Origin: Pseudomonadota bacterium
GTDB lineage: Bacteria > Pseudomonadota > Alphaproteobacteria > Rhizobiales > JAKPQE01
NCBI GenBank assembly: GCA_029572955.1
Contig: JAKPQE010000016.1
Coordinates: 1-49,631 of the forward strand
Direction of reading: 5' to 3'
Length of the DNA: 49,631 nt
Made by a program: the position numbers and the translations under genes. Under the pieces are notes generated by a model. The model was not told the DNA's origin. It made no database searches and saw nothing but the letters and a program-made list of their open reading frames with translations. Below, in pieces: positions 6,501-41,629 of this stretch (its first letter is position 1; each line of letters begins with the position of its first letter).

Positions 6501-7092
6501 CGCAAACCCCCTGGGTGCTTCCGGTGTCGAGCGGACGGAACCGTGGCAGAACCTGCGACAATATGTCTTGACGATCGTCAACCGCTGTGTGGATCGAAGC
6601 GCCGACAGCACCTGCATTGTCTACCAACACACTGTTTTGAAATGAAAAAATGATCTGATCAACCGAACATATTTCCCGAATGCCCGACGGCCGCACCCGC
6701 GGCAACCCTTTCCAGGCGAGCTTGCACAACAGGTAGGCGACACTGCCGGTCTGTCGATTTTCGCCTGCGACCGTCGGCGGGCCGCCGAGGACGAGTCGCG
6801 GCCGGTCGGCAGGCGCGGCGCCGGAAAACGATTCCCGTTTTCTCGACCAGCCGCCGCTCGACGATGAGCGGACAAGACTCCCCGCACACATCGCGCCGAA
6901 ACCGCGGCCGACCGATGTGTCCAAACAGATTCGTCAGTCTGTACCTAAGGCGGGCTCGATTCTCAGATTAAAGTGCCGGGAAATCGGAATTATTCGGCGA
7001 TGCGAGCAAGAGTCCCCTCCTTAGCTACAAGGCGGGAGCAAAGTTTATTGCGCGCCCCGATAAGAACTTACCGACATACGGAGGGTGAAACC
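6501..7092. other. Divergent intergenic region, 592 bp
   Basis: This region separates the minus-strand hemerythrin operon from the plus-strand molybdoenzyme gene. It contains the FNR-type box at 6568-6581 and an AT-rich patch near 6620-6675. Open frames through it lack coding character. The GGAGGG ribosome binding site for the molybdoenzyme lies at 7080-7085. Nothing else recognisable was seen. Confidence 0.6.
6568..6581. promoter_or_regulatory. FNR/DNR-type palindromic box
   Basis: TTGACGATCGTCAA is a perfect palindrome with the TTGAC-N4-GTCAA form used by the CRP/FNR family (FNR, DNR, NnrR). Its centre is about 75 bp before the hemerythrin start codon. The box is far (about 510 bp) from the molybdoenzyme gene on the other side, so the hemerythrin operon is the likelier target. 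Confidence 0.6.
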
Positions 7093-9519: not shown

Positions 9520-9529
9520 ACGAGGTGTC

Positions 9530-9547
9530 GCCGGACGGGCGTCCGGC
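9530..9547 (+). other. Hairpin between molybdoenzyme and cytochrome genes
   Basis: GCCGGAC and GTCCGGC form a perfect 7-bp stem with a 4-nt loop, 11 bp after the molybdoenzyme stop. No T-run follows, so it is more likely an mRNA-stabilising or attenuating structure than a full terminator. Confidence 0.35.
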
Positions 9548-9673
9548 CAGCCGGTCCCGGCGGCCGGACGCCCGATAGCACGACACGGACCCGCATGGCC
9601 TGGCAGGGCCGGCGCGACCGTTCTTTCGATGACGCGACGACGACCTCGCGTCGACGCATGAGGAATCCCGAAG

Positions 9674-10648
9674 ATGCCCATTCCCGTTTCGCGGACCGTG
9701 GCGATTGCCGGCGCCCTGGCGATCGAGATCGCGGCCGCCGCGGTCCTACTGTGGTCGCGCCCCATCGCCCCGTCGATGGCGGACGCGGCCGCTGTCAGCT
9801 ACGTCAAGACGCTTGCCGAGCTGCACGCGGGTCCCGGCGGTCCGGTTATTGCGACCGTCCAGCCGGGAACGCCGGTGACGGTCCTTGCGACAAAGGGCAC
9901 CGCAACCGAGATCGAGCTGTCCGGGTGGTCGCCGATGGGCGGCGCCAAATACATCTTCAAGGACGCCGGCGAGCGTATCGGGCGGGCGACCCTGACCGAC
10001 GAGGGCGTCGCCAAGCGCATCGTCGCCGGCACCAAGGACGATGCCTGGGAAAGCACCTGGGAGAATGCCAAGGTCGACGGCTGGATCGATACCGCCGATC
10101 TCGTTCCCGATCTCGGCACCGTCTGGGACGATGCCGGCAGCCTCTACTACTCGCGCTGCTCGCGCTGTCACTCCCTGCGCAAGCCGCGCGAATTCACCGC
10201 CAACCAGTGGCCCTCGGTGCTGAAGATCATGACGGCCCGCGCCGGCTTCACCAAGGATCAGGCGGCGCTGGTCACGGCACTGCTGCAGAACCATGCCCGC
10301 GACCAGAACGTCGACGACAGCTTTGCCGAAACGGTGGCAGCGCGGGCAACGACCCCCGAACAGCCCCAGGTCGCCAAGATCGTCGGCACCCCCAAGATGG
10401 CCGAAGAAGGCAAGGCGGCCTTTGCCGACAACAGCTGCAACGCGTGCCACGGCGACGATGCCAAGACGCCGATCATGCCGGAATATCCGCGGGTTGCCGG
10501 CCAAAGCCCGGAATACCTCGTCAAGCAGATCCTCGACTTCAAGTCCGGCGCCCGCAGCAACGACGCCTTCTCGGCGATGAAGGATGCGGTAACGCCGATT
10601 TCCGAGGATGACGCACGGGCCATCGCCTATTGGCTTTCGACGTTGTGA
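9674..10648 (+). CDS. Membrane-anchored dihaem cytochrome c with TorC-like C-terminal haem domain
   Basis: This is a 324-aa protein. Residues 9-28 form a single N-terminal membrane anchor. Residues 40-145 look like an SH3-like beta domain. Two haem motifs follow: Cys162-Ser-Arg-Cys165-His166 and Cys255-Asn-Ala-Cys258-His259. The region after the first haem (FTANQWPSVLKIM) matches the C-terminal cytochrome domain of TorC, which passes electrons to TorA. The second is an ordinary class I cytochrome c. The usual tetrahaem NapC/NirT domain of TorC is absent, so it cannot by itself be a TorC-type quinol oxidase of known kind. It probably feeds the molybdoenzyme encoded just upstream. A short AGGA lies 9 nt before the ATG. 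Confidence 0.85.
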   Translation: MPIPVSRTVAIAGALAIEIAAAAVLLWSRPIAPSMADAAAVSYVKTLAELHAGPGGPVIATVQPGTPVTVLATKGTATEIELSGWSPMGGAKYIFKDAGERIGRATLTDEGVAKRIVAGTKDDAWESTWENAKVDGWIDTADLVPDLGTVWDDAGSLYYSRCSRCHSLRKPREFTANQWPSVLKIMTARAGFTKDQAALVTALLQNHARDQNVDDSFAETVAARATTPEQPQVAKIVGTPKMAEEGKAAFADNSCNACHGDDAKTPIMPEYPRVAGQSPEYLVKQILDFKSGARSNDAFSAMKDAVTPISEDDARAIAYWLSTL

Positions 10649-12510: not shown

Positions 12511-12717
12511 TCATGCTACGTCGACAGTCGCGCGCCGTTCCAGGCGCTTGTCTATCCACTCCTCCACCTCAGACAACAACCACGCCACCCGGTTCTGGCC
12601 CAGCCTCAGCCTCTGTGGGAATTGGCCTGCCTTTTCCAGCCGCGCGATGTGCTGCGGCGAGTATTTCACAAGCTTGGTCAGTTCCTTTTTGTCGATCAAC
12701 TGCTTGGGATGCGACAT
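12511..12717 (-). CDS. Small AlpA-like/excisionase-type DNA-binding regulator
   Basis: This 68-aa protein fits the AlpA/MerR-like excisionase fold: an N-terminal LIDKKELTKLVKYSPQHIARLEKAG helix-turn-helix region followed by FPQRLRLGQNRVAWLLSEVEEWID, where the RVAW...EVEEWI end is the family hallmark. Such proteins regulate integrases or act as excision factors of phages and integrative elements. ATG 12715-12717 has GGGAG 8 nt upstream, and a longer frame extending to 12780 is not supported. No integrase is present in the window, so it is an orphan, perhaps a relic of an integrated element or a plasmid-type regulator. Confidence 0.75.
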   Translation of the reverse strand: MSHPKQLIDKKELTKLVKYSPQHIARLEKAGQFPQRLRLGQNRVAWLLSEVEEWIDKRLERRATVDVA

Positions 12718-13212
12718 CGGATATCTCCCTTCAAAAGGAGCATCCGGATGCCCCAGCCTCGGCATGCCAACCGAGCCCAATGGGCAAGTTCGAATCTACG
12801 CTTCTCGCCTTCCGGTAGCAAGATGACCAAGGCTGCACATAGCTGCTCATTTGGCGCGCCGGAGCGTCAACATCCACAGTGCTCATGATGGATATCCATG
12901 CGGGATGGAACCCGATATGATCAAACGACTTTCGGCAGATTTGAGTTGCGACATTGAGCCGCCGATGTCATGTTGATTGTATTTTAGGCATCAAACAACC
13001 GTTCGGTTGAAAATGGGGGTATATTGCGGGGTATTTCTAGCTTGTGGTCGAAGATAAAGTCCAGATATTTCAATATATTACACGGATACATAGATTCCGC
13101 CCCTGGGCACCACTTTTCCCTTCCCATGACTGCACATGGCGGATTGAAAACCGCGCCAATTCAATGAGCTGATTGATGCGCGGGGCGCATCGGCGCTCAT
13201 CGCGCACGCCCT
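12718..13212. other. Non-coding region, 495 bp, AT-richer than its surroundings
   Basis: This lies between the AlpA-like gene start and the stop of the response regulator gene. The segment 12900-13110 is clearly richer in A+T than the rest of the window. No tRNA, repeat array or convincing ORF was found. It may hold the promoter of the AlpA-like gene and an old junction of transferred DNA. Confidence 0.5.
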
Positions 13213-13932
13213 TCAGGAACCACCGGAGATCCCGGAGAACACATATCCGATGCCATGAACGGTTTTGACGTATATCGGATCCGACGGATCATCCTCGATC
13301 TTGCGCCGAAGGCGTGCGACGTGAGCATCGATGGTGCGGTCCGTGACCGCCTGGGCATTGCCTTTCAACCGGTCGAGGAGTTGATTGCGGCTGAATACGA
13401 TGTTCGGCCGCTCGGCGAGTGTCCGCAGGAGATCGAACTCGGTGCTCGTCAGGTGCGCGTCGGCCCCGGCACCGTCGACGACCGTCCGAGCCGAAATGTT
13501 CATCAGCCACTTGCCGAAACGTATGATTCCACTGCCTGTCACCTCGGATCCGTTGATCGTCGATCCGCTGTGATAACGCCTCAGCACCGACTTGATGCGA
13601 GCCACGAGTTCGCGCGGCTCGAAAGGCTTCGTCACATAGTCGTCGGCGCCGACCTCGAGCCCGATAATCCGATCATAGACCTCGTCCCGCGCCGTCAGCA
13701 GGATGATCGGCAACTGGCTCGACCGCCGCAGTTCCTGGGTGAGCTCGAACCCGTCGCAATCCGGAAGGCCGATGTCGAGGACGCAAAGGTCGAAGTCCTG
13801 GCGAGCGAGCGCCAGCTTCATTGCTGCCGCCGACCCGGCCGTCACGACCTTGAAATCCTGCTTGCGCAGATAGCGATCGAGGAATGACGCCAGTTGCGCG
13901 TCATCGTCGACGACTAGTATCCGCGTGCTCAT
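13213..13932 (-). CDS. OmpR/PhoB-family response regulator
   Basis: This is a 239-aa cytosolic DNA-binding regulator. The receiver domain (about 1-120) has the acidic pocket (VVDDDAQ), phospho-acceptor Asp53 in VLDIGLPDCDG and Lys in YVTKPF. The C-terminal winged helix (about 140-235) ends with TIDAHVARLRRKI and VKTVHGIGYVF. ATG at 13932 was preferred to an in-frame GTG at 13941. It is divergent from a hybrid histidine kinase whose gene starts within 275 bp, so the two form a probable sensor-regulator pair. Its intergenic region carries a 13-bp motif that recurs before the cytochrome peroxidase/idr operon, which makes that operon a likely target. OmpR-type proteins bind tandem direct repeats about one helical turn apart, matching what is seen there. 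Confidence 0.92.
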   Translation of the reverse strand: MSTRILVVDDDAQLASFLDRYLRKQDFKVVTAGSAAAMKLALARQDFDLCVLDIGLPDCDGFELTQELRRSSQLPIILLTARDEVYDRIIGLEVGADDYVTKPFEPRELVARIKSVLRRYHSGSTINGSEVTGSGIIRFGKWLMNISARTVVDGAGADAHLTSTEFDLLRTLAERPNIVFSRNQLLDRLKGNAQAVTDRTIDAHVARLRRKIEDDPSDPIYVKTVHGIGYVFSGISGGS

Positions 13933-14070
13933 TCTTGCCACCGCGCCCGACGATCGCTCGCCGATACACGGTCCCTCGCCACAGTTCGCGATGCGACAAT
14001 TGCCATCGAGACCCTAGGGCCATTTCTGCCCCGATCGAAATGCCTCTTGAGTTACATATATTCCTATCAT

Positions 14071-14206: not shown

Positions 14207-16498
14207 ATGCGCCTTCTGCGGGCCACCCTCGACAACCCACGCCCCGTACTGATCAGCGCCGCGGCCGCGGTGCTCCTCGCCGCAACCGTCGTCACCGCGG
14301 TCTATCTCGGCGGCGAGACGCAGACCCGGTTCCGGGAAATCACCACGAGCTGGACACGCTATTCGGAGGATGCCGACCAGAAGGGCGCGCTCATCAGCGA
14401 GATCCGCGGCCTTCTCGGCTATGGCGGCATCATCCACAATTTCAAGAACTACGTGCTGCGCCAGGACGGCAGCTACCTCACCCGCCTGCGCCGGCAGCTC
14501 GCCGACTTCTATGGCGTCGTCGACGGCTTCGAGCGCATGGAACTGGCCGAGGTCGAGCGCAATTCCCTGCGCGAGATCCGCCGGACGATGGAGACCTACG
14601 AGGCGAAGATCCCGATCGCCATTACCGCGGCGGCGGAAGGATGGCCGATCGAGAAGACCGACCAGCTCGTCAAGGTCGACGACACCGCGGCGATCGAGGC
14701 GCTGCGCGCGATCGAGGGCTACTGGCGCCAGCGCCGGCAGGAAAGCACGCGCGAGATCGTCGGCGCAGTGCACGAGGGCGATGCCCTCATCGCTTTCGGC
14801 TATCGCTTTCTGTTCGCTTTCGCCTTCGTCGCGCTGGCGCTCTACGGCCTGTTCTACCTGCTCCTGCGCGAACTCTACTGGACGATCGGGCGCCTCTCGC
14901 GCGAACTGATCGAGCGCATGCGGGCGGAGCGCGCCGAGAACAAGCTGTCGCGCGCGGTCGAGCAGAGCCCGGCGACGATCGTCATCACCGACACCGACGG
15001 GCGGATCGAATATGTCAACCGGCGCTTCGAGCAGGTCACCGGCTACGATCGCGACGAGGTGCTCGGACGCACGCCGAAATTCCTTCAGTCCGGCGGTACC
15101 TCGCCGGAGGAATATGCCGAGCTGCGCCGCCTGACCGGCGGCGGCGAGGAATGGCGCGGCGTTTTTCGCAATGTCGGCCGCAACGGCGAATCCTACTGGG
15201 CCGAGACCACCATCCTGCCGCTGAAGGACGCCGACGGCACGATCCGCAACTTCATCGGCATGGGCGAGGACGTCACCGAAAAGCGCAAGGCGCGCGAGCA
15301 GGTCGTAAAGGCGCAGAAGATGGAGGCGGTCGGCCTCCTGGCGGGCGGAATCGCCCATGATTTCAACAATGTCCTGACGACCATCCTCGGCAACGCCCAC
15401 CTTGCCCATCTCGACGTCGAGCCGGAGAGCGACGTCGCCCTCGCCGTCGAGCAGATCGAGATCGCCGCCAAGCGGGCCCAGGCCCTCGTGCGCCAGCTTC
15501 TCACCTTCGCCCGCCGCAAACCGGCCGAGGCGCGCCGCCTCGATTTGCGCGACGCCATCGACGAGGTGCTGCGACTCCTGCGCGCCTCCGTGCCGCCGAC
15601 CATCGAAATGACCCTCGAGGCACCGTCGCAGCCGGTCGCGGTCTTTGCCGACCCGACCCACCTGCATCAGGTTCTGCTGAACCTGTCGCACAATGCGGTC
15701 GAGGCCATCGGCGGACGCCAGGGCCGGCTCTGTTTCCGCCTTGCCATCGCCGAGGCCCCGTTGCGCGCCGGTCACGAGACGGACGAGCCGCCACGCCTCG
15801 CATCGATTGCCGAGCTCGTCGTCGGCGATACCGGGCCCGGCATGCCGCCGGAGGTGGTCGGCCGGGTCTTCGATCCCTTCTTCACGACGAAACCCGTCGG
15901 CAAGGGCACCGGACTGGGGCTCACCGTTGTCTCGACCCTCGTCGAGGAAATGGGCGGCACGATCGGCCTCGACAGCGCGCCCGGCAAGGGCACCCGGTTC
16001 ACGATCCGTCTGCCGATGGTCGATGCGCCGGACATCGACAAGAAGCAGGTGAGCGAGATCAAGGGCGGGCGCGAGCGCATTCTCGTCGTCGACGACGAGG
16101 TCGATATCGTCTCCGTCTATCGCCGCCTGATGATGCGCCTGGGCTATTTCGTCGAGGCCTATACCGATCCGCACACGGCGCTTGCGGCCTTCCGGTCGGA
16201 CCCCGGCCGCTTCGACATCGTCGTCTCGGATCTCGTCATGCCGGAGATGAACGGCGAGATGATCGCCCGGGAAATCTGGCAGGTCCGGCCCGATTGCCCG
16301 GTGATCATCTGCACCGGCTACCGCACGCGGTCCTTGCGGGAATGGCGACACGGCGCGCTCGCCGTCCTCGACAAGCCGGTCGATCCGTCGAGCCTCGCCG
16401 AAACGATCCGGGCGATGCTCGATGCGCCCCGCAGCTCGGCGGGCGACGCAGACGATGCCGCGCCGGCGCCCGACGCGGCCACCGCCGCCGTCGACTGA
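14207..16498 (+). CDS. Membrane hybrid histidine kinase (sensor, PAS, kinase, receiver)
   Basis: This is a 763-aa protein from ATG 14207. The first membrane segment is at residues 14-35, a periplasmic sensor region at about 36-198 (with IIHNFKNYVLR), and the second membrane segment at about 200-221. A PAS domain follows (about 250-360, EQSPATIVITDTDG). His384 is in the phosphorylation motif GGIAHDFNNVL, and the ATPase boxes are GDTGPGMP and GKGTGLGLTVV. A C-terminal receiver domain has VVDDE, Asp in VVSDLVMPEMNG and Lys in LDKPVD. There is no Hpt domain, so relay to the divergent OmpR-type regulator would be direct or need an outside Hpt. The ligand is unknown. The idr operon begins 221 bp downstream on the same strand. 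An earlier in-frame start (14081) would add a non-conserved extension and no strong ribosome site decides between them. Confidence 0.9.
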   Translation: MRLLRATLDNPRPVLISAAAAVLLAATVVTAVYLGGETQTRFREITTSWTRYSEDADQKGALISEIRGLLGYGGIIHNFKNYVLRQDGSYLTRLRRQLADFYGVVDGFERMELAEVERNSLREIRRTMETYEAKIPIAITAAAEGWPIEKTDQLVKVDDTAAIEALRAIEGYWRQRRQESTREIVGAVHEGDALIAFGYRFLFAFAFVALALYGLFYLLLRELYWTIGRLSRELIERMRAERAENKLSRAVEQSPATIVITDTDGRIEYVNRRFEQVTGYDRDEVLGRTPKFLQSGGTSPEEYAELRRLTGGGEEWRGVFRNVGRNGESYWAETTILPLKDADGTIRNFIGMGEDVTEKRKAREQVVKAQKMEAVGLLAGGIAHDFNNVLTTILGNAHLAHLDVEPESDVALAVEQIEIAAKRAQALVRQLLTFARRKPAEARRLDLRDAIDEVLRLLRASVPPTIEMTLEAPSQPVAVFADPTHLHQVLLNLSHNAVEAIGGRQGRLCFRLAIAEAPLRAGHETDEPPRLASIAELVVGDTGPGMPPEVVGRVFDPFFTTKPVGKGTGLGLTVVSTLVEEMGGTIGLDSAPGKGTRFTIRLPMVDAPDIDKKQVSEIKGGRERILVVDDEVDIVSVYRRLMMRLGYFVEAYTDPHTALAAFRSDPGRFDIVVSDLVMPEMNGEMIAREIWQVRPDCPVIICTGYRTRSLREWRHGALAVLDKPVDPSSLAETIRAMLDAPRSSAGDADDAAPAPDAATAAVD

Positions 16499-16515: not shown

Positions 16516-16566
16516 CGATCGCCGTCACATTTCGTCACAACATTTCAAAAGAAGTCACGGCGATCG
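16516..16566 (+). promoter_or_regulatory. Probable response-regulator operator before the idr operon
   Basis: GTCAC occurs at 16524, 16534 and 16554, all on a strict 10-bp period, with a degenerate TTCAA at 16544 filling the missing register. The array is framed by a perfect 10-bp inverted repeat, CGATCGCCGT (16516-16525) and ACGGCGATCG (16557-16566). The first repeat lies in CCGTCACATTTCG, shared exactly with the regulator/kinase promoter region. Decameric tandem boxes of this kind are bound by OmpR/TorR-type regulators. Confidence 0.6.
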
Positions 16567-16719: not shown

Positions 16720-17859
16720 ATGAAGACCAAGCGAACGATCCTCACTCGCGTGCTGCCGCTGGCGGCGCTGGCGACCGCGATCGCGGTGTCCGGCGTCCAC
16801 GCGGCCGACACCGCAAAGGCGGCCGACACCGGCGACAAGCCGGCCTTCGCGCCGCTGCCCGACGCAAAAGAGGTGAAGCAGGCCCGCGCCGACCTCGGCC
16901 GCTACCTGTTCTTCGACACCCGCCTGTCGGGCGATACCGCAACGTCGTGTTCGACGTGCCACGATCCCGCCAAGGGCTGGAGCGATGGCCAGCAACTCTC
17001 CAACGGCTACACAAGCATTTCCTACTTCCGCAACGCCCCGAGCCTGTTCAACGCGGCCTTCAGGAACTTCTACATGTGGGACGGCCGCCTCGACGGCTCC
17101 GACCAGGGCGCCGTCGTGCGCGACATGCTGACCGAGGCGCACACCATGAACATGGATTCGCGCCTCGCCCAGGAGCGCCTGAAGCAAGTGCCCGAATATG
17201 CCGCGATGTTCGAGACGGCCTTCGGCGGCGATCCCTATGGCGGCAAGATCTATGGCGCCATCGGCGAATACATCAAGACGATCCGCACCGAGAACGCGCC
17301 CTTCGACAAGTTCCTCAAGGGCGACAAGAAGGCCCTCGGCGCCGACGCCAAACGCGGCATGGACCTCTTTGCCGGCAAGGCCGGCTGCATCTCCTGCCAC
17401 AACGGCGCCACTCTCTCGGACGGCAAGCGCCACGCCCTCGGCGTGCCGGACAACCCGGAGCTTGCAACCAATGCCGAGCGGCAGATCTCCATGCTGCGGC
17501 ATTTCTCGACGATGGGCACGCCCAACTACATGAACCTGCGCACCGATGTCGGCGCCTATGTCGTCTCCAAGGACAAGGCGGACATCGGCAAGTTCGCGAC
17601 GCCCTCGCTCTGGGATGTCGGCCAGACGGCGCCGTACATGCATTCCGGCGTGTTCGCCTCGCTCGCGGCGGTCGTCGACTTCTACGACGCCGGTGGCGGC
17701 GACGGGCCGAACAAGAGCGGGCTTCTGAAGCCGCTCGGCCTTTCCAAGAAGGAGAAGGCCGACCTCGTCGCCTTCCTCACGAGCCTGACGGGCGACGCCC
17801 CGAAGGAGAAGGCGCCCGAGCTTCCCGCCTACAAGCTCCGTGAACTCGGCAAGAACTGA
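16720..17859 (+). CDS. idrP1: Dihaem cytochrome c peroxidase, first copy, of the iodate reductase cluster
   Basis: This is a 379-aa periplasmic protein. The Sec signal peptide covers about residues 1-28. Two c-type haem motifs fit the bacterial CcpA/MauG-type peroxidase family: Cys77-Ser-Thr-Cys80-His81 and Cys223-Ile-Ser-Cys226-His227. Family motifs include LGRYLFFDTRLSGD, RNAPSLFNAAF, FYMWDGR and FATPSLWDV followed by YMHSG. It would reduce H2O2 to water with electrons from a soluble donor. ATG 16720 has a purine-rich ribosome site (AGAAGGGA). The second peroxidase gene begins 12 bp after its stop. In iodate-respiring bacteria the two idrP products are proposed to remove peroxide produced by IdrAB. 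Assignment as P1 rather than P2 is provisional. Confidence 0.82.
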   Translation: MKTKRTILTRVLPLAALATAIAVSGVHAADTAKAADTGDKPAFAPLPDAKEVKQARADLGRYLFFDTRLSGDTATSCSTCHDPAKGWSDGQQLSNGYTSISYFRNAPSLFNAAFRNFYMWDGRLDGSDQGAVVRDMLTEAHTMNMDSRLAQERLKQVPEYAAMFETAFGGDPYGGKIYGAIGEYIKTIRTENAPFDKFLKGDKKALGADAKRGMDLFAGKAGCISCHNGATLSDGKRHALGVPDNPELATNAERQISMLRHFSTMGTPNYMNLRTDVGAYVVSKDKADIGKFATPSLWDVGQTAPYMHSGVFASLAAVVDFYDAGGGDGPNKSGLLKPLGLSKKEKADLVAFLTSLTGDAPKEKAPELPAYKLRELGKN

Positions 17860-17870
17860 GGGGGGAGAAG

Positions 17871-18992
17871 ATGAAACGGTTCTCTCGCTACCTGCTCGGC
17901 ACCACCGCGGCCGTGCTCATGATGGCACCGCTCGCGGCCTCGGCCGCCGAATACCCGCCGCTGGCGACCCTGCCGCCGGTTCCCGTCCCCGCCGACAACC
18001 AGATGTCGGACGCCAAAGTCGAGCTCGGCAAGAAGCTCTTCTGGGACGGCCGCCTGTCCGGCAACGGCACGATGGGCTGCGTCGCCTGTCACGAGCCGGA
18101 CCTCGGCTGGGGCACCGGCGGGCCGATCTCGTTCGGCTATCCGGGCACCCAGCATTGGCGCAACTCCCAGACCGTGCTGAACAGCGCCTACTACTATCTG
18201 ATGTTCTGGGAAGGCAGCGCCACTTCGCTCGAGGGCCAGGCTCCGGCCGCCGCGGGCGGTGCCGTCGCCGGCAACGGCGATGGCTCGATGATGGAGATGA
18301 AGCTGCGCTTCGTCCCCGAATACGTGAAGGCCTTCAAGGAAGTGTTCGGCACCGAGTGGCCGCACGTCGCCCAGGCCTGGCAGGCGATCGCCGCCTTCGA
18401 GCGCACGATCGTCACCGACGCCACCAAGGTGCCGTTCGACCGCTACCTCGCCGGTGACGCGGCCGCCCTCGGCGACGCCGCCAAGCGCGGCATGGAACTC
18501 TACAACGGCAAGGCCGGCTGCATCTCCTGCCACAACGGCGCGCTCGCCAGCGACCAGCGCTTCTACAACACGGGTGTTCCGAACGCCAAGGAGTTCACGG
18601 AAGACGAACTCTACCAGATCACCCAGCGCTGGGAGCTCTACCAGAAGGGCATGCCCGAGGCCGACTACCGCAACGGCGGTGTCGACTACGGCCTGTTCCA
18701 CAAGACCAAGCGTCCGGACGACAAGGGCAAGTTCCGCACCCCGTCCCTGCGCGAACTGAAGTGGACCGCGCCCTTCATGCACAACGGCTCGCTCGAGACG
18801 CTCGCCGACGTCGTCGATTTCTACGACCGCGGCGGCGGCGAGGGCAACAAGGTGCTGAAGCTGCTCGGCCTCACCGCCGAGGAGAAGGCCGACCTCGTCG
18901 CTTTCCTCGAAAGCCTGTCGATGGACGAGCCGCTCCTGATGGAAGAGCCGAAGCTTCCCGAAACTGCAACCTGGGCGGAGTTTCCGAAATGA
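17871..18992 (+). CDS. idrP2: Dihaem cytochrome c peroxidase, second copy, of the iodate reductase cluster
   Basis: This is a 373-aa periplasmic paralogue of the preceding peroxidase. The signal peptide ends near residue 26 (LAASA/AE). Haem motifs are Cys70-Val-Ala-Cys73-His74 and Cys217-Ile-Ser-Cys220-His221. It shares GKAGCISCHNG, FRTPSLRELKWTAPFMHNGS and VVDFYDRGGGEGN with the family. It differs from the first copy by an insertion rich in Ala/Gly around residues 122-140 (before MMEMKLRFVPEY). The stop codon overlaps the start of the Rieske gene (ATGA), so translation is coupled to the oxidoreductase. P1/P2 naming between the two copies is provisional. Confidence 0.82.
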   Translation: MKRFSRYLLGTTAAVLMMAPLAASAAEYPPLATLPPVPVPADNQMSDAKVELGKKLFWDGRLSGNGTMGCVACHEPDLGWGTGGPISFGYPGTQHWRNSQTVLNSAYYYLMFWEGSATSLEGQAPAAAGGAVAGNGDGSMMEMKLRFVPEYVKAFKEVFGTEWPHVAQAWQAIAAFERTIVTDATKVPFDRYLAGDAAALGDAAKRGMELYNGKAGCISCHNGALASDQRFYNTGVPNAKEFTEDELYQITQRWELYQKGMPEADYRNGGVDYGLFHKTKRPDDKGKFRTPSLRELKWTAPFMHNGSLETLADVVDFYDRGGGEGNKVLKLLGLTAEEKADLVAFLESLSMDEPLLMEEPKLPETATWAEFPK

Positions 18993-19549
18993 CGAACGTT
19001 CTCAGCCATGAAAAGGGCGGACACGCGACGTCGAGCTGCATGAGCCGCCGCAACTTCCTGATCCTCGGCGGTGCGTCGGTCACCGTTCTCGGCCTGCTCG
19101 GCGCGACCGGGACGGCGCTCGCCAACGCGCCCGAGCTGGTCATGAGTTCCTATGCCCGCAAGGTCGTGGGCAAGGTGTCGGCCCTGAAGGCCGGCGAAGC
19201 CGTCGAGTTCTCCTACCCGACCGACGACATCCAGAACATCCTCGTCAAGCTCGGCGAGGAAGCTGGTGGCGGCGTCGGCGAGGAACGCGACATCGTCGCC
19301 TTCAACACGGTGTGCCCGCACATGGGCGGCATCATGGACGCCGGCACCTTCAAGGCCAGCCACAGCGTGCTCGGCCCCTGCCCGCTCCACCTTTCGACCT
19401 TCGACCTGACCAAGCACGGAATGGTGGTTTCCGGCCACTCGACCGAGAGCCTGCCGCAGATCGTCCTCGCGATCGAGGGCGACGACATCGTCGCCACCGG
19501 CGTGATGGGCCTGTTCTACGGCTACAGCCGCAATCCTTCCGGCGCGTGA
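18989..19549 (+). CDS. idrB: Rieske [2Fe-2S] subunit of AioAB/IdrAB-type oxidoreductase
   Basis: This is a 186-aa protein with a Tat signal (Ser19-Arg20-Arg21-Asn-Phe-Leu) and a hydrophobic segment at about 24-46. The Rieske cluster ligands are Cys109-Pro-His111 and Cys131-Pro-Leu-His134, in the pattern of arsenite oxidase small subunits (AioB) and IdrB. It would pass electrons between the molybdenum subunit and a periplasmic cytochrome. The large subunit has no signal of its own, so this protein should carry it through the Tat system. It overlaps the preceding peroxidase gene by 4 bp and is followed after 13 bp by the large subunit. A plain AioB annotation is possible, but the peroxidase neighbours favour IdrB. 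Confidence 0.87.
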   Translation: MTNVLSHEKGGHATSSCMSRRNFLILGGASVTVLGLLGATGTALANAPELVMSSYARKVVGKVSALKAGEAVEFSYPTDDIQNILVKLGEEAGGGVGEERDIVAFNTVCPHMGGIMDAGTFKASHSVLGPCPLHLSTFDLTKHGMVVSGHSTESLPQIVLAIEGDDIVATGVMGLFYGYSRNPSGA

Positions 19550-19562
19550 GAGGGAGAGAGAG

Positions 19563-22235
19563 ATGACAACCCTACCGCTTCCCAATGTCGACTACGTGCC
19601 GCTTCCCCCGCCGGACGCGGACGTGCTGACCACCGCCTGCGCCTACTGCATCGTTGCCTGCGGCTACAAGATCTACCGCTGGCCGGTGGGCACGGAAGGC
19701 GGCGCCAAGGCCGATGAAAACGCCTTCGGCATCGATTTTCCGACCGGCGGGGCGCTGACCCCGTGGGTCTCGCCGTCGCAGCACAACATCGCCATGCACG
19801 AGGGCCGGCCGCATCACGTCGTGGTCGTTCCCGACTACGCCACCGAGGTGGTCAACCCGCAGGGCAACCACTCGATCCGCGGCGGCACCCTCGCCCAGAA
19901 GATCTACAATCCGGACACGCCGACGCGCCAGCGCCTGCAGTATCCGATGGTGCGGATCGGCGGCGTCCTCACCCCGGTCTCCTGGGACCTCGTCACCGAC
20001 GTCATGGCCGAGGTGTCGAAACACGTCCTCGAGAACCACGGCGAGCACGCCTGGGGCATGAAGACGTATTCCTACGAGTACTTCGAGAACACCTACGCCA
20101 TCTCGAAGCTCGTCAACCGGGCGATCGGCACGCCGGTCTATGCCCCGCACGACAAGCCGCAGGCGGCCGAGGACGCCGCCGGCCTCGACGATGCCGGTGT
20201 CAACTCCTTCTCGGCCTCGTTCGAGGACTGGGGCGCCTGCGAGGTCGCCTTTATGTCGGGCGTCGACCCCTATGAGACCAAGACGGTGCTGTTCACCCAC
20301 TGGCTCATGACCGGCGACAACCCGAACAAGAAGCTGATCTTCGTGACGCCGCACAAGACCATGGGCGTCGAATACGGCCTGAAGAACGGCGGACTCTGGC
20401 TGCCGATCGTTCCGGGCACCGACACCGTGCTCCACCTGGCGCTCGCCAAGATCATCATCGACAACGGCTGGCAGGACCAGGAGTTCATCGACAAGTGGGT
20501 GAACACCAAGTGGGAGATCGAATCCGGCTACGGTCGCGGCACCCGCAACACCCGCTGGCAGTGGCGCACGACCTGGGGCCGCTGGCAGAGCGACTGGGAG
20601 GACTTCCAGAAGTTCATCGCCAAGGAAAAGGCGGCCGAACTCGACGAGGCGGCGGCCATCACCGGCCTCGACAGGGACCTCATCCTCGCCACCGCCGAGG
20701 CGATCGCCAAGCCCAGGGCCGACGGCAGCCGGCCGAAGACCTCCTTCATGCTGGAGAAGGGCAACTACTGGTCCAACAACTACATGAACACCGCGTCGCT
20801 GGCGGCGGTCGGGCTCCTGTGCGGTGCCGGCAATCGTCCGGGCCGGGTGATCTCGCGCGGCGGCGGCCACCAGCGTGGCGGCATGGGCGCCGGCGGCGGC
20901 AAGGGCTTCCTCAGCCCCGAGAAGTATCCGGGCCGCCGCAAGAAGGCCCTCAACGTCGACCGCTGGGTGATCGACGGCAATGTCCGCTTCATGTGGCTGA
21001 TGGGTTCGACCTGGTTCCCGGCGATGCTCGCGTCGCAGGAACTCGCCGACCGCGTTGCCGACCTCACGGTGCGCAACGAGCACCATCCGCGCTCGGTCGA
21101 CAAGGAGCACCTCATCCAGACCTACAAGGACCGCGTCGAATCCGGCGGCATGGTCCTCGTCGACAGCGACATCTATCCGGTCGAGCCACTGAACACGCGC
21201 TTCGCCGACATCGTGTTGCCGGCGGCCTGCTGGGGCGAGGTCGACTTCACCCGCTGCAACGCGGAGCGTCGTCTGCGCCTCTACTCGAAGTTCAACGACG
21301 CGCCGGGCGAGGCCAAGCCCGACTGGTGGGCGATCGGCCAGTTCGCCCAGAAGATGGGCTTCGACGGCTTCGACTGGAAGGAATCGAACGACATCTTCGA
21401 GGAAGCGGCGCGGTTCTCGCGCGGCGGCGTGCTCAACTACTATGCGCTCGCCGTCCATGCCAAGCGCGAGGGCAAGAAGGCCCACGAGAAGCTGCGCGAA
21501 CTGGGCACGACCGGCATCCAGACGCCGATCCGTGTCAAGGACGGCGAGCTTGTCGGCACCAAGCGCCTGCACGACCCGGACAACGACTGGGGCGAGGTCG
21601 AGGACGTGACCACCGATCAGAAGTGGCTCTATGCCTTCGGCACGCATACCGGCAAGGCGAACCTGCTGAAGACCCCCTGGGCCAATGACGGCTGGATCGA
21701 CTTCTACGAGGCCATCAAGCCGCGCAAGGACAAGGGCGAGGTCTGGATCACCAACGGTCGCGTCAACGAGACCTGGCAGTCCGGCTTCGACGACCTGCGG
21801 AAACCCTACCTCGCCAAGCGCTGGCCCTGGCCGTTCATCGTCATCCACCCGGACGACGCGGCACCCCAGGGGATCGAATCCGGCGATCTCGTCGAGGGTT
21901 TCAACGACACCGTCTACGTGCAGACCGGCGAGCCGATCGGCGTCAAGGAGAAGGACCTCACCTTCACCAAGCTGATGGAGGGTGGCCACATCAAGACCAC
22001 CACCGGCCAGTTCGTCGCGGTCGCCATCGTCTCCGACGAGATGCGGCCGGGCATTGCCAAGGCGGCGTTCAACTATCCCGGCTCGATGGCGAACTCGGTC
22101 TGCCACGCCGTGCCGGATCCGGTCAGCGGCAACTACCGCTACAAGCTCGGTCGCGGTGTCCTGAGGAAGGTGGGTGAATCCGCCTACAAGAAGAACTTCC
22201 TCGAGATGTCCCTGAAACCGCGCCCGATCGCGTGA
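19563..22235 (+). CDS. idrA: AioA-like molybdopterin subunit, probable iodate reductase IdrA
   Basis: This is an 890-aa DMSO-reductase-family catalytic subunit, closest in layout to arsenite oxidase AioA but longer (AioA is about 825 aa). The N-terminal cluster motif is exactly Cys26-X2-Cys29-X3-Cys33-X70-Ser104, which binds [3Fe-4S] in the Aio/Idr group. After about residue 320 it has an insertion rich in Arg and Trp (GYGRGTRNTRWQWR). AioA contacts arsenite through two residues in a His...Glu segment and an Arg/His pair. Here Arg432 and His436 (RGGGHQRG) are kept, while the region aligned with the His...Glu pair (around 204-216) has neither. It has no signal peptide and relies on the Rieske partner for Tat export. 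Two dihaem peroxidase genes upstream complete the four-gene idr set. Arsenite oxidase is the main alternative. Confidence 0.85.
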   Translation: MTTLPLPNVDYVPLPPPDADVLTTACAYCIVACGYKIYRWPVGTEGGAKADENAFGIDFPTGGALTPWVSPSQHNIAMHEGRPHHVVVVPDYATEVVNPQGNHSIRGGTLAQKIYNPDTPTRQRLQYPMVRIGGVLTPVSWDLVTDVMAEVSKHVLENHGEHAWGMKTYSYEYFENTYAISKLVNRAIGTPVYAPHDKPQAAEDAAGLDDAGVNSFSASFEDWGACEVAFMSGVDPYETKTVLFTHWLMTGDNPNKKLIFVTPHKTMGVEYGLKNGGLWLPIVPGTDTVLHLALAKIIIDNGWQDQEFIDKWVNTKWEIESGYGRGTRNTRWQWRTTWGRWQSDWEDFQKFIAKEKAAELDEAAAITGLDRDLILATAEAIAKPRADGSRPKTSFMLEKGNYWSNNYMNTASLAAVGLLCGAGNRPGRVISRGGGHQRGGMGAGGGKGFLSPEKYPGRRKKALNVDRWVIDGNVRFMWLMGSTWFPAMLASQELADRVADLTVRNEHHPRSVDKEHLIQTYKDRVESGGMVLVDSDIYPVEPLNTRFADIVLPAACWGEVDFTRCNAERRLRLYSKFNDAPGEAKPDWWAIGQFAQKMGFDGFDWKESNDIFEEAARFSRGGVLNYYALAVHAKREGKKAHEKLRELGTTGIQTPIRVKDGELVGTKRLHDPDNDWGEVEDVTTDQKWLYAFGTHTGKANLLKTPWANDGWIDFYEAIKPRKDKGEVWITNGRVNETWQSGFDDLRKPYLAKRWPWPFIVIHPDDAAPQGIESGDLVEGFNDTVYVQTGEPIGVKEKDLTFTKLMEGGHIKTTTGQFVAVAIVSDEMRPGIAKAAFNYPGSMANSVCHAVPDPVSGNYRYKLGRGVLRKVGESAYKKNFLEMSLKPRPIA

Positions 22236-22264
22236 CGCATATCCCCCCTTCACACGCGAAAGGA

Positions 22265-22296
22265 GGCGCCGGCGGCAACGCCGGCGCCTTTCTTTT
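22265..22296 (+). terminator. Strong intrinsic terminator of the idr operon
   Basis: A perfect 10-bp stem (GGCGCCGGCG, complement at 22279-22288) is closed by a GCAA tetraloop and followed by TTTCTTTT. It begins 30 bp after the large-subunit stop. Confidence 0.95.
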
Positions 22297-26570: not shown

Positions 26571-28391
26571 ATGGCGAAGGCGGCAAGCGCAGAGATCGAA
26601 TTCGGCCCGGCCAGCGCCAGTTCCGGCCGCTCGCCTGCGCACAGGAAGATCCTCGTTGCCGAGGACGACCGGGCATCGGCGGACGTGCTGCGCGCGCTCC
26701 TGACCGAGCGCGGCCACACGGTCGATGTCGTCGGCGATGGCGAGGCCGCGATCCATGCCCTGAATTCCGGCGTCTACGACGTCGTGATGGTCGACTTCCA
26801 TCTGGCACGGCTGGACGGCCTCGAGGTCGCCGCCGCCTATCGGGTCAAGCATTCCGGCAAGCACGCGCCGCGCTTCATCGCGATCTCCTCGGACATGCGC
26901 GGCCTCCTCGAACACGCCGCGAGCTGCGAGACCTTCGACGAGGTCGTTGCCAAGCCCTTCGACCTCGAGGATGTCTGCCGCATCGTCGAAGACGAGTATC
27001 AGCCCCAGTTGCGGCGCGCCGAGCCGGTGCCGCCGCGTGCCGGCGCGCCGCGCCCGATGGCACCCGAGCCGACGCCGGCGCGTGCCGGCGCCGCGGCCGG
27101 TGCCGCGGACGGCTTCGATTTCGAACGCCTCAACTGGCCGGAGGATTTTCGCGGCGACCAGCTCTCGGCGCGTGCCATGCGGGCGGCGATCGGCGACGGA
27201 AAGTTCCGCGCCATCGTCGTCAACCAGCCCGCAACCCTCGACGATCTGCGCGCCATCTGGCGGGTCAAGTACCTGCACACCCTGCCGATCGTCGACCGGC
27301 ACGGCGGCCTCGGCGTGCGCGCCGATTTCGACGGCTCGCAATTCGGCTTCCGCGATCGCGAGGAGATCGACAAGCTGGTCGCGGCGTTCGAGAACCGGCG
27401 ATCGCTGCTGCACGCCGACTTCCTCTATGCCGAGAGCCTCGCCGACCGCCTGCTCGCCCGCATCTTCCTGTCCGGCGGCAGCCTCGTCGCGCATCACGAC
27501 CCGCAGAGCCGGCAGTTCATCGCCTACAACTGCGCCCTCGACTGCGACACCGTCGAGCGCGAGACCGCGCGGCTGTGCGACCAGGGGCTTCTGAAGAAGG
27601 TCTTCTTCGACCGCATCCACCGCTGCGACCGGTGCGGCTCGTCGCGGCTGAACATCCGCGAGGAGTGCACCGAATGCCACTCCCCGAACCTCGTCGAGGA
27701 GCCCTACCTGCACCATTTCCGCTGCGCCTATCAGGGGCTGGAATCCGATTTCCGCCAGGGCGACGCGCTCATCTGCCCGAAATGCCGACGCGAGCTGATG
27801 CATTACAGTGTCGACTACGACAAGCCCGGCACGATGATCGTCTGCCGGTCCTGCGGCCACAAGGGCTCGGAACCGGCCGTCGGACTGCTCTGCATGGATT
27901 GCGGGGCGCACACCGACGGCGACCAGGCGAGCGTCGCCGACATCTACAGTTACGAGCTCACCGAGCGTGCCCTCGGCCTCTTGAAGAGCGGTCGCGAGCT
28001 CTTCGGCATCGAGCGCAATGCGCTGTCCTTCGCCGAGCTGCCGCTCGAACTCGTCATCGCCGTCAACAACGAACTCACGCGCTACAAGACGAGCGGCGTC
28101 CCCTTCACCCTGCTCGATATCTCCTACCGGAACGCCCGCAGTCTCGAGGTCGAGCACGGCGCGCGGCAGTTCGACGAGGTCCGCGACCTGTTCCTCGAGA
28201 ACCTGCGAAGCGTGCTGCGCAAGGCCGACCGGGTGGTCAAGGGCCGCTTCTACGATTTCGCGCTGCTCGTCGAGACCGACCCCGACGAAGCGCGCGACCA
28301 TATCGACGAAATCCGCGACGAGGCGGTGAACACCATCCGGCTGAACCTCGGTGTTCGGATCTCGGCCCATGGCGTCGCCTCGTTTCTCTGA
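26571..28391 (+). CDS. Response regulator with TackOD1-like zinc-ribbon domain and degenerate GGDEF-like end
   Basis: This is a 606-aa cytosolic protein. Residues 25-140 are a receiver domain (Asp75 in VVMVDFHLARLDG, Lys128 in VVAKPF). A Pro/Ala-rich linker spans 147-175. Residues 185-450 contain a domain ending in several CXXC zinc ribbons (Cys352-X2-Cys355, then CTEC, CPKC, CRSC, CMDC), the pattern of the TackOD1 output domain. The last ~150 residues are helical and strand-rich and resemble a diguanylate-cyclase fold without a GGDEF signature. GGAGG precedes the ATG. The glycosyltransferase gene follows 10 bp later, so it probably controls polysaccharide synthesis. Cyclic di-GMP synthesis is unlikely without GGDEF. 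Confidence 0.82.
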   Translation: MAKAASAEIEFGPASASSGRSPAHRKILVAEDDRASADVLRALLTERGHTVDVVGDGEAAIHALNSGVYDVVMVDFHLARLDGLEVAAAYRVKHSGKHAPRFIAISSDMRGLLEHAASCETFDEVVAKPFDLEDVCRIVEDEYQPQLRRAEPVPPRAGAPRPMAPEPTPARAGAAAGAADGFDFERLNWPEDFRGDQLSARAMRAAIGDGKFRAIVVNQPATLDDLRAIWRVKYLHTLPIVDRHGGLGVRADFDGSQFGFRDREEIDKLVAAFENRRSLLHADFLYAESLADRLLARIFLSGGSLVAHHDPQSRQFIAYNCALDCDTVERETARLCDQGLLKKVFFDRIHRCDRCGSSRLNIREECTECHSPNLVEEPYLHHFRCAYQGLESDFRQGDALICPKCRRELMHYSVDYDKPGTMIVCRSCGHKGSEPAVGLLCMDCGAHTDGDQASVADIYSYELTERALGLLKSGRELFGIERNALSFAELPLELVIAVNNELTRYKTSGVPFTLLDISYRNARSLEVEHGARQFDEVRDLFLENLRSVLRKADRVVKGRFYDFALLVETDPDEARDHIDEIRDEAVNTIRLNLGVRISAHGVASFL

Positions 28392-28401
28392 ATAGGGCCC
28401 G

Positions 28402-29673
28402 ATGTTTGCGTTGGTGGAAGATACGGTCGGCCTGGCTTCGTCGCTGGATTTGGCGGCGCTTTTCGCCATGTTCTGGCTGACGGTCGTCTTCGACGTGCCG
28501 CGCACGCTGTTCCTGTTCCTCGCCGCCTGCGTCGCGCTCGGCCGGCGCAAGGCGCCGGCGGACGATGCGGCGGGCGATCGCCACAAGGTCAGCATCATCA
28601 TCGCCGGACACAACGAGGCCGACTCGATCGAGCGCTGCGTTGTCTCGCTGCGCGAGCAGAGCCGGCCGCCGGACGAGATCATCGTCGTCAGCGACGGCTC
28701 GACCGACAACATGGCCGCGGTCATCCGCGATCTCGAACGCCGCGGGCTCGTCGACCAGGCCCACGCCACCGACCTCAGGGCCGGCAAATCGGCCGCCATG
28801 AACCTCGCCCGCCGTTGGGTGACGGGCGACATCCTCATCAATGTCGACTGCGACTGCTCCTTCCAGCGCCACGCGATCCGCAACCTGTTGCCGCAGTTCG
28901 ACGACCCCGCCGTCGGCGCGGTCTCCGGCAACATCCTCGTGCGCAACGAGCACGCCAGCCTCATCGCGACGCTGCAGTCTGTCGAGTACCTGATCAGCAT
29001 GTCGCTCGCCAAGACCGCGCAGGAGATGTTCGACCAGGTGACCTGCGTATCGGGCGCCTTCAGCGCCTTCCGCGTTACCGCCCTCGACGAGGTCAGCGGC
29101 GTCGATGCCGGCAGCGGCGAGGACTTCGACCTGACATTGCGGCTGCGCAAGGCCGACTGGCGCATCGGCTTTGCGAGGGATGCGATCTGCTACACCGACG
29201 TCCCGGTGAAGCTGCAGGCACTGACGCGCCAGCGCTTCCGCTGGGAACGCGACGCCTTGCGCCTGCGCTATCGCAAGCACGGCGACCTCATGAACCCGCT
29301 GTCGCGGACGTTCCGCTTCAGCGAACTCGTCCACGAGATCGAGTTCATCGTTTTCCACGTCGTCGCCGCCGCGGCGCTGCCGGTCTATCTCATCTGGCTG
29401 TTCGCCACCTATGGCGACCTCGCGCCCTTGCTGCTGGCGCTGGCCTTCGCGGTCTCGACGCTCCTCGAACTCGCGACCTTCCTGATTGCCGCCTACGTGA
29501 CCCCGGAGGCGCACGGCCTGCGCCTCCTCGCCTACACGCCGGCATTCGGTCTCTATCAAGGCTTCCTGATGCGCTTCGTGCGGCTCGGGGCTTATCTCGA
29601 CGAATGGCTCTTCAATTCCTCGGCCCGGGACAACTACGTCCCCGCCAAGGTCCAGATCTTGAGAAGGTGGTGA
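28402..29673 (+). CDS. Membrane processive GT2 glycosyltransferase (exopolysaccharide synthase)
   Basis: This is a 423-aa inner-membrane protein. N-terminal hydrophobic segments span about 13-50. The GT2 catalytic region has all processive-synthase marks: SIIIAGHNEA, VVSDGSTDN, the Asp-X-Asp site in INVDCDCSF, the catalytic SGEDFDL and the QXXRW-type RQRFRW. Three or four C-terminal membrane segments complete the transport channel. The family includes PgaC, NodC and Alg8-type enzymes that polymerise sugars from nucleotide precursors while exporting the chain. It sits between a signalling protein and an HlyD/Alg44-like protein, which suggests a regulated secreted polysaccharide. The sugar cannot be predicted. 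Confidence 0.88.
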   Translation: MFALVEDTVGLASSLDLAALFAMFWLTVVFDVPRTLFLFLAACVALGRRKAPADDAAGDRHKVSIIIAGHNEADSIERCVVSLREQSRPPDEIIVVSDGSTDNMAAVIRDLERRGLVDQAHATDLRAGKSAAMNLARRWVTGDILINVDCDCSFQRHAIRNLLPQFDDPAVGAVSGNILVRNEHASLIATLQSVEYLISMSLAKTAQEMFDQVTCVSGAFSAFRVTALDEVSGVDAGSGEDFDLTLRLRKADWRIGFARDAICYTDVPVKLQALTRQRFRWERDALRLRYRKHGDLMNPLSRTFRFSELVHEIEFIVFHVVAAAALPVYLIWLFATYGDLAPLLLALAFAVSTLLELATFLIAAYVTPEAHGLRLLAYTPAFGLYQGFLMRFVRLGAYLDEWLFNSSARDNYVPAKVQILRRW

Positions 29674-29674
29674 C

Positions 29675-30682
29675 ATGCGTGCGCTGAGAAAACGGCCGCG
29701 GCCCGACAATCTGGTGTCGCAGCAGCGCAAGGCGACCAACAGTGTCGGCCGGATTGTCTATCTTGGCCTCGTGGCCGCGCTGCTCGTCGCCGTCATGAAC
29801 TTCCTGTTCGGCGACATGGTGTTCCTGCGGGCGGACGGCCTCGTCCTGCGCGACCGGACCTCGCTCGCCGCCACCTATCTCGCCCAGGTGATCGACGTCG
29901 AGGTCAAGGCCGGCGACGCCGTCCGGGAAGGCGAGGTCGTGCTGCGGGTGCAGTCCGGCGACATGCTGGAACGCCTCGCCGAACTCAGCGCCAACCGCGC
30001 CCGCATCGCCTCGCAGCTCGTCGATTTCAAGGTACGCCTCGAAACCTCGCGCCAGCTGGTACCGCTGGCCGGCCGCCGCGAAGCCGAGACCTCGCGCCTG
30101 ATCGCCGATTTCGACAGCCTCAGCGACCGCAGCCTGATCAGCTCGGCGCGCTACGAAGAGGCGCTGCTGGCGCAGTTCGACGCCCAGCACGACTATGTGA
30201 AGCTGTCCACGGAAAGCTCGACCCTCGAGAATGAACTGCGCGTGCTCGAAGCGGCCCAGGCCGACGCCGAAGCGGCGCTCGCCGATCTTCGCTCGCACTA
30301 TCGCGACGGTGTCCTGACCGCCCCCGCCGATGGTTCGGTGGATGCCGACGTGCCCTCGCCGGGCGACGTGTTCCGGCCCGGCGACGAGATCCTGTCGGTC
30401 TATTCGGGCGAGGCCTACGTGCTCGCCTACCTGCCGCGCCGCTACCTCTTCGACCTCGAACCGGGGATGCCGGTCGAGGTCTCGAACGGGCGCCTCACCG
30501 CCGCCGGCGAGATCGAGGCGATATTGCCGGTGACCGGCGCCGCACCGGCGGAATTCCAGAACACCTTCCGCCCCACCGATCGCAATCAGCTGGCGCGCAT
30601 CCGCCTGATCGAGGCCGCGGACTTCCCGCTGCGCGAGAAGGTGACGATCCGCGCCGCGAGCCGCCTGCCGCAGCTCTTCTGA
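29675..30682 (+). CDS. HlyD/Alg44-like periplasmic adaptor protein
   Basis: This is a 335-aa protein with one N-terminal membrane segment (about 25-46, IVYLGLVAALLVAVMNFLFG). A split biotinyl-lipoyl/barrel-sandwich domain follows (EVKAGDAVREGEVVLRVQSG, and DGSVDADVPSPGDVFRPGDEIL), flanking a coiled-coil hairpin of about 150 residues, as in membrane fusion proteins. The ATG is 1 bp past the glycosyltransferase stop, so the two are coupled. The pairing copies the alginate Alg8-Alg44 arrangement, although no PilZ domain is seen. It probably helps move the polymer across the periplasm. Confidence 0.87.
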   Translation: MRALRKRPRPDNLVSQQRKATNSVGRIVYLGLVAALLVAVMNFLFGDMVFLRADGLVLRDRTSLAATYLAQVIDVEVKAGDAVREGEVVLRVQSGDMLERLAELSANRARIASQLVDFKVRLETSRQLVPLAGRREAETSRLIADFDSLSDRSLISSARYEEALLAQFDAQHDYVKLSTESSTLENELRVLEAAQADAEAALADLRSHYRDGVLTAPADGSVDADVPSPGDVFRPGDEILSVYSGEAYVLAYLPRRYLFDLEPGMPVEVSNGRLTAAGEIEAILPVTGAAPAEFQNTFRPTDRNQLARIRLIEAADFPLREKVTIRAASRLPQLF

Positions 30683-35838: not shown

Positions 35839-35868
35839 CACCGCCTCCCTTCGTTCCTGCCGCCGCGA

Positions 35869-38669: not shown

Positions 38670-38693
38670 GGGGCGTCTCCTTCGGGGCGGCGA

Positions 38694-40457: not shown

Positions 40458-40470
40458 CGCCCTCTCCTCC

Positions 40471-41550: not shown

Positions 41551-41629
41551 GGCCTCGTTCCCTCTCGCTTGGCATGGAGTCCCTGCCCGACCCGGGGCGA
41601 GCTGCCCGCTCCCCCGGGTCGGCGCGGCG

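Follow-up and report, generated by a model that had tools for sequence, protein, structure and literature searches.

Denitromonas iodatirespirans IR-12 no longer grows on iodate once idrA is deleted, and recovers this growth on complementation (PMC8692401 section 8); as of 2022 the confirmed iodate respirers formed one small IdrA clade (PMC8801600 section 7). The published model has IdrAB reduce iodate to hypoiodous acid, which disproportionates abiotically while the peroxidases detoxify (PMC8692401 sections 8-10); an alternative model includes a Cld-like step (PMC10149662 section 10). The idr genes of Azoarcus sp. DN11 are accompanied by a sigma-54 regulator with a sensor kinase (PMC10149662 section 7), and for the respirers' clade it has so far only been proposed that a two-component system close to idr senses iodate (PMC8801600 section 7). 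Here we analyze contig JAKPQE010000016.1 (49,631 nucleotides, hereafter the window) of an alphaproteobacterial genome bin, which carries idrP1, idrP2, idrB and idrA downstream of a hybrid kinase, a divergent OmpR-type regulator and a tandem array of decamers (Table 1). We propose, at a probability of roughly one half, that some alphaproteobacterial idr operons are under a dedicated iodate-responsive two-component system acting on GTYACA-N4 decamers before idrP1. Such a switch would accompany IdrAs of two distinct lineages, and its class would not be that of the sigma-54-type regulators that adjoin idr in DN11, Azonexus and Thiothrix.

The four genes form one coupled run (16720-22235, with gaps of 11, −4 and 13 bp from idrP1 to idrA). 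The initial annotation of this DNA had their coordinates exactly, and its family assignments are borne out by Pfam domains and cofactor motifs, with best-domain E-values from 1.6e-6 (Rieske) to 1.8e-41 (CCP_MauG). Each peroxidase has two CxxCH motifs (at residues 77 and 223 of IdrP1 and 70 and 217 of IdrP2), IdrB has a Tat motif (SRRNFL, residue 19) and a Rieske motif of the form CxH-X19-CxxH, and IdrA combines Rieske_3, Molybdopterin and Molydop_binding domains with a [3Fe-4S] motif, CX2CX3CX70S. The set resembles idrABP1P2 of IR-12, Aromatoleum toluclasticum TC-10 and Azoarcus sp. DN11 in its four genes, their order, domains and cofactor motifs, and its products are 54% (IdrP1), 63% (IdrP2), 58% (IdrB) and 68% (IdrA) identical to those of the IR-12 locus. 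It differs from these loci in the Rieske spacing (X19 here, X18 in the available description of DN11) and in that neither moaA nor a cytochrome c551 at curated score was found in the portion of the neighbouring genes scanned.

The strong terminator called at the end of the run also holds up: its predicted folding energy is −34 kcal/mol (z −5.6), and its stem is the longest of the 8 terminator-like sites of the scan, a number that in itself is no excess (6.7 expected). The remark that the genes stand in the reverse of the order in their name is correct as worded and carries no information. In a survey of 99 loci (L008-L106, some records present twice), P1-P2-B-A was the order in 65 of the 66 loci where all four genes were found, IR-12 included, and this order is already in print (PMC8801600 section 7); we therefore rejected a reversed order as a peculiarity of the window. 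The sole exception has P1 last (L027). The other 33 loci are incomplete, in many cases because the contig or stretch ends there; in one record, present as both L038 and L089, the peroxidase piece adjoining B matches P1 best, and in another (L025) A alone was found.

IdrA was compared with the best 80 of 592 related stretches from a scan of a genome collection. Among these, the closest IdrAs are 81-86% identical (metagenome-assembled genomes of the Pseudomonadales and Kiloniellaceae, Aurantimonas and Rhodophyticola), and most alphaproteobacterial relatives are 50-52% identical. In a tree of 69 rows (LG+G4, quick search, SH-aLRT support, ArxA not among the rows), the window IdrA lies in a clade of 6 rows, itself nested in one of 17 rows to which the 10-row IR-12 group belongs as well (100% support for each of the two clades); the fork uniting the 6-row and 10-row groups has no support, owing to one long row (L023). 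A branch with 100% support separates the window IdrA from the five AioA references and L106. The subunit thus falls outside the AioA clade; a place inside that clade is what the initial annotation had named as fatal to its reading.

We aligned the IdrA-side rows to AioA structures and rows and compared the pocket residues His195, Glu203, Arg419 and His423 (A. faecalis AioA numbering). His195, Arg419 and His423 are common to all 63 IdrA-side rows and are also in AioA. The Glu203 position is Glu in 5/5 AioA and in one of the 63 IdrA-side rows, where Ser (37) and Asp (23) prevail (others, 2), and the residue two after His423 is Glu in 5/5 AioA (HQE) and Arg in 62/63 IdrA-side rows (HQR). The window IdrA has HQR and Asp; a negative charge lost and a positive one gained in the pocket would fit an anionic substrate. 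Two deep-branching relatives differ in this respect, one having the IdrA pocket (L102) and the other the AioA pocket (L106), and in the short stretch of each no peroxidase genes were found.

AioAB arsenite oxidase is like the window enzyme in family, in its [3Fe-4S] and Rieske subunits and in part of the pocket, and the cluster might be read as an arsenite oxidase (Aio) variant with incidental peroxidases. NCBI's arsenite-oxidase models TIGR02693 and TIGR02694 accept A (445 bits, cut-off 359) and B (107.5 bits, cut-off 95.65), the solved structures closest to IdrA by sequence are AioA, and the pocket His, Arg and His are common to both. We consider this reading very improbable, as the window IdrA is separated from the AioA clade at 100% and is 28-31% identical to AioAs on plasmids (including that of Sinorhizobium M14), the pocket has Asp for Glu and HQR for HQE, two peroxidase genes stand in conserved order where the AioA neighbourhoods of PMC8692401 section 10 are without them, and no aioXSR-type genes are among the neighbours scanned, unlike on pSinA. 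The absence of aioX/S/R put forward in the initial annotation fits the genes scanned, but that annotation passed over a two-component system of another type directly upstream and the repeats before idrP1. Its warning that the cluster is easily misannotated as arsenite oxidase is justified by the two model scores, and an idr locus on an Azonexus plasmid carries the annotation 'arsenate reductase (azurin)'. Because of the canonical order, the 68% identity to the knockout-proven IR-12 IdrA, the 100% IdrA clade and the HQR/Asp pocket, we regard it as highly probable that the four genes make up the full operon for a periplasmic iodate reductase (Idr) in a member of the Hyphomicrobiales, as the initial annotation had held for the enzyme, with iodate reduction inferred from relatives.

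Upstream of idrP1 lies a hybrid sensor histidine kinase, whose reading frame is open from 14081 with its first Met at 14207, and divergent from it an OmpR/PhoB-type response regulator. The layout recalls TorS-TorR, TorS being likewise a hybrid kinase (as the name of its model also says), in that a hybrid kinase and an OmpR-family regulator go with 10-bp boxes before a molybdoenzyme operon. The window pair scores far below the Tor models (kinase, 111 bits against a TorS cut-off of 676.5; regulator, 199 bits against a TorR cut-off of 275, with the OmpR model match also below cut-off), and the core of its boxes differs from the decamers CTGTTCATAT (tor boxes) that TorR binds before torCAD (PMC9239176). 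It also differs from the kinase and sigma-54-type regulator of the DN11, Azonexus and Thiothrix plasmid loci. The periplasmic sensor is predicted to be helical (pLDDT 87). When its fold was compared with NarQ/Tar-like four-helix-bundle sensors in mind, a Foldseek search with this prediction gave no match at E ≤ 0.001; the rows listed in a fold comparison reached Z 10.3-14.0 over 102-221 residues, with unrelated and designed bundles among them, and the best match of a sensor profile to PDB sequences was only E 0.1.

The pair recurs at other idr loci. Of 80 named loci, 57 could be tested for the sensor (P1 present with at least 2.9 kb before it; the other 23 could not), and 13 of these have it no more than 3.5 kb before idrP1, made up of 13/37 alphaproteobacterial and 0/20 other loci, with class taken from record names. 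Among the other 24 alphaproteobacterial loci, two (L054, L058) have the kinase ~2 kb further off, and a third (L062) has kinase pieces only. A regulator homologue accompanies the kinase in all 21 other kinase-linked loci, divergent beside it in 15 and ~12 kb away in 6 Ruegeria; among the 13 loci with the sensor within 3.5 kb the corresponding numbers are 7 and 6 (again Ruegeria). In a sample of 297 genomes from the order, the sensor gives a strong match (E < 1e-40) in 10 and a match at E ≤ 1e-12 in 21. IdrA occurs in 19 genomes overall and in 7 of the 10 with a strong match (P 1.4e-7), a count of 20 at the limit used having been reduced by one genome (G011) whose protein is 37% identical with an AioA-like pocket. 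In all seven genomes with both, kinase and idr genes are together on one contig. Among 385 genomes spread over the class, the sensor (E ≤ 1e-30) was found only in the window's own genome, a rarity that makes its place beside idr unlikely to be background.

Between the kinase gene and idrP1 lies an array of tandem decamers, GTYACA-N4. By a graded score it is the best place in the window (0 better of 99,212 positions), and GTYACAN4GTYACA occurs once, against 0.01 expected. The stretches between kinase and idrP1 in kinase-linked loci hold common repeats: on the graded GTYACA score, with a consensus drawn up after view of 16 upstream regions including the window's, the locus-best three-box match lies before idrP1 in 19 of 22 kinase-linked loci (the exceptions being L039, with 17 better places, and L046 and L052, with one each), and in two of 41 controls (L062, with its broken kinase, and L044). 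To limit fitting, a two-box test used the window's GTCACA-N4-GTCACA alone and placed L062 (broken kinase match, score 9) in neither group. Matches of at least 9/12 were found in 21/21 other kinase-linked loci and in 0/40 idr loci without the kinase, and matches of at least 10/12 in 12/21 and 0/40, respectively. We chose the threshold of 9 knowing the scores (no control exceeded 8), and 15 of the 21 loci had already been viewed when the consensus was drawn up; the six unviewed loci, of which four are Ruegeria and two Cohaesibacter, have scores from 9 to 10. With boxes spaced at 10 bp the best match averages 10.1, and with spacings of 8, 9, 11 and 12 bp it averages 7.8-8.2, with controls at 7.2-7.5 throughout. 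After thinning to 14 loci, the separation from 21 alphaproteobacterial controls persists (P 1.8e-7); as the sequences are related, P values are only a guide.

The repeats are associated with the kinase/regulator pair. In the switch that we propose, the kinase would phosphorylate the OmpR-type regulator, which would bind the candidate sites at 16524-16560 and switch on transcription from a promoter 5′ of idrP1. Judged from gene layout and repeats, the pair probably controls idr. As to the signal, the case for iodate, or a product of it, seems to us evenly balanced. In one marine species, 0.1 uM iodate is already enough to induce idrA. In the open-access literature, itself covered in part, we met no OmpR-type pair or operator array at idr.

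Several observations weigh against a dedicated iodate switch. The sensor is missing from the 3.5 kb upstream of idrP1 in 24/37 testable alphaproteobacterial loci, and L044, a control without the kinase, has its best three-box match (weak, 12.3) before idrP1. In the whole genome (3.76 Mb) the exact two-box site occurs once, at idrP1, which is about the chance expectation, and sites with up to one mismatch number 5, as many as for a reversed control. Three genomes of one genus in the same order (L159, L160, L161) have the pair with no idrA match, and the window kinase is nearer to theirs (54-57%) than to idr-linked kinases (41-52%). There, the locus-best graded match is found where the kinase gene ends, ahead of genes for a Crp-type regulator and for cytochrome c maturation (ccmF/ccmH; identified by Pfam in L161 and by reading in the other two; the array of L161 scores slightly higher on the opposite strand). 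The array would thus follow the kinase pair rather than idr, and the pair may respond to redox state or to an oxyanion other than iodate. Besides pair and array, L159 contains a multihaem cytochrome.

These three genomes suggest that the pair could be a general respiratory or redox switch captured by idr and not sensing iodate, which we regard as possible but on the whole somewhat doubtful. It would agree with a predicted sensor that is a common helical bundle, and with the window and Rhodophyticola, whose IdrAs group and are 81% identical, yet whose kinases are 40-47% identical over the parts compared and do not group in the kinase tree. It is less easily squared with a sensor that is rare in the class (1/385), yet idr-linked in 7/10 strong matches in the order. 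From the two trees, the switch was probably joined to idr more than once, or exchanged. Aurantimonas marina, with a related IdrA (84% identical), has no kinase match in the 1.37 kb examined and no array; by reading, a Crp/FNR-like regulator (L009 222-989, minus strand) stands divergent from idrP1 in the kinase's place.

By analogy with relatives, electrons would leave the quinol pool by way of the bc1 complex, and a c-type cytochrome would carry them to the Rieske cluster of IdrB. From there they would enter IdrA, with its [3Fe-4S] cluster and its molybdenum cofactor, where iodate would take up four electrons to yield hypoiodous acid. This would disproportionate to iodide and iodate, and IdrP1 and IdrP2 would remove peroxide or another oxidant by-product. 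IdrA has no signal peptide on reading and may be exported by riding with Tat-tagged IdrB. The genome has cytochrome c1 of bc1. It has no match to the Cld family, which favours the model without a Cld step (abiotic disproportionation), and we rejected a Cld-dependent route for hypoiodous acid. No second full-length AioA/IdrA was found in the genome, the other IdrA matches being short; of four short-match proteins scanned, two pass a curated model (NapA and formate dehydrogenase) and two fail. No cd1 nitrite reductase was found in the genome.

Respiration on iodate is not assured, because aerobic alphaproteobacterial iodate reducers did not grow anaerobically on it (PMC11445184). A true Idr may serve electron disposal or iodate removal at low oxygen and not growth, as proposed for marine aerobic Alphaproteobacteria, and we rate this use as a serious contender, a little short of even odds. 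The genome has two COX1-family (haem-copper oxidase) genes, by reading one cbb3-type and one adjoining a ctaB-like gene. In gene content the window's cluster agrees with those of aerobic marine Alphaproteobacteria (Roseovarius azorensis and others), and some named alphaproteobacterial idr loci have the same kinase/regulator pair. The window IdrA, however, belongs with the IR-12 clade and not with the main group of alphaproteobacterial IdrAs, at 50-52% identity (the loci compared did not include R. azorensis), and NapA and a TorA-type reductase suggest anaerobic respiration. The CcoN-like frame of a cbb3-type oxidase (L169, contig C181, ~1207-2890) has one in-frame TGA, which is either an assembly error or real.

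Table 1. Features of the idr locus and its candidate control region (window coordinates).
Feature	Position	Strand	Description
OmpR/PhoB-type response regulator	13213-13941	−	Pfam Response_reg (REC) and Trans_reg_C; divergent from kinase
Hybrid sensor histidine kinase	14207-16498	+	Pfam PAS, HisKA, HATPase, REC; predicted helical periplasmic sensor
Candidate regulator-binding array	16524-16560	+	GTCACATTTC-GTCACAACAT-TTCAAAAGAA-GTCACGG; upstream of idrP1
idrP1	16720-17859	+	379 aa, di-haem cytochrome c peroxidase-like; Pfam CCP_MauG 1.8e-41
idrP2	17871-18992	+	373 aa, di-haem cytochrome c peroxidase-like; Pfam CCP_MauG 5e-40
idrB	18989-19549	+	186 aa, Rieske [2Fe-2S] subunit with Tat motif
idrA	19563-22235	+	890 aa, molybdopterin catalytic subunit
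Intrinsic terminator	22262-22291	+	13-pair stem, T-rich tail; directly 3′ of idr run

The host is alphaproteobacterial, as first annotated: in a comparison with 29 named genomes, four of which gave no match, full-length rpoB matches are 78-83% identical to Hyphomicrobiales (Roseibium, Oricola, Pseudovibrio, Aurantimonas and others) and 71-73% to Rhodobacterales. A 16S search of the bin found nothing, so the taxonomy rests on rpoB. The bin is 98.7% complete and 3.6% contaminated. We rejected the window as a contaminant, since its 4-mer make-up matches the main bin: five 10-kb pieces of it correlate at 0.79-0.95 with eight other bin stretches and at 0.55-0.66 with contig C33, three of 12 stretches (1-2.5 kb) having been left out. 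Contig C33 (L118), of foreign 4-mer make-up, carries a second, divergent rpoB and is likely a contaminant.

The wider neighbourhood holds other respiratory and assimilatory genes. About 6 kb upstream of idr (6973-10648) are a TorA-type S/N-oxide reductase and a c-type cytochrome with a TorC-like C-terminal match; a TorA homologue (41%) is also near idr on an Aliiroseovarius contig (L060). On the minus strand, 33124-43039 holds a probable nitrate assimilation set, with a nitrate reductase-like protein (below model cut-offs), NirB and, by reading, ABC transporter parts with an NrtA-like binding protein. A piece of an IS4/5-type transposase (3337-3708, minus strand) and an AlpA-like regulator (12511-12780, minus strand) are possible traces of mobility upstream of idr. 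Downstream, 26571-30682 encodes a protein with receiver and TackOD1 domains, a glycosyltransferase and, by reading, a membrane-fusion-like protein, possibly an exopolysaccharide locus.

For annotation, IdrA and AioA entries that both bear an arsenite-oxidase name in databases can be told apart by the two pocket positions, and the array could mark idr clusters under kinase/regulator control. The kinase, the regulator and the candidate operator make iodate sensing directly testable, and the same layout is present in the named strains Oricola cellulosilytica, Thalassovita taeanensis and Rhodophyticola porphyridii. Iodate reduction feeds iodide to surface seawater and thereby enters ozone and aerosol chemistry (PMC11445184, introduction).

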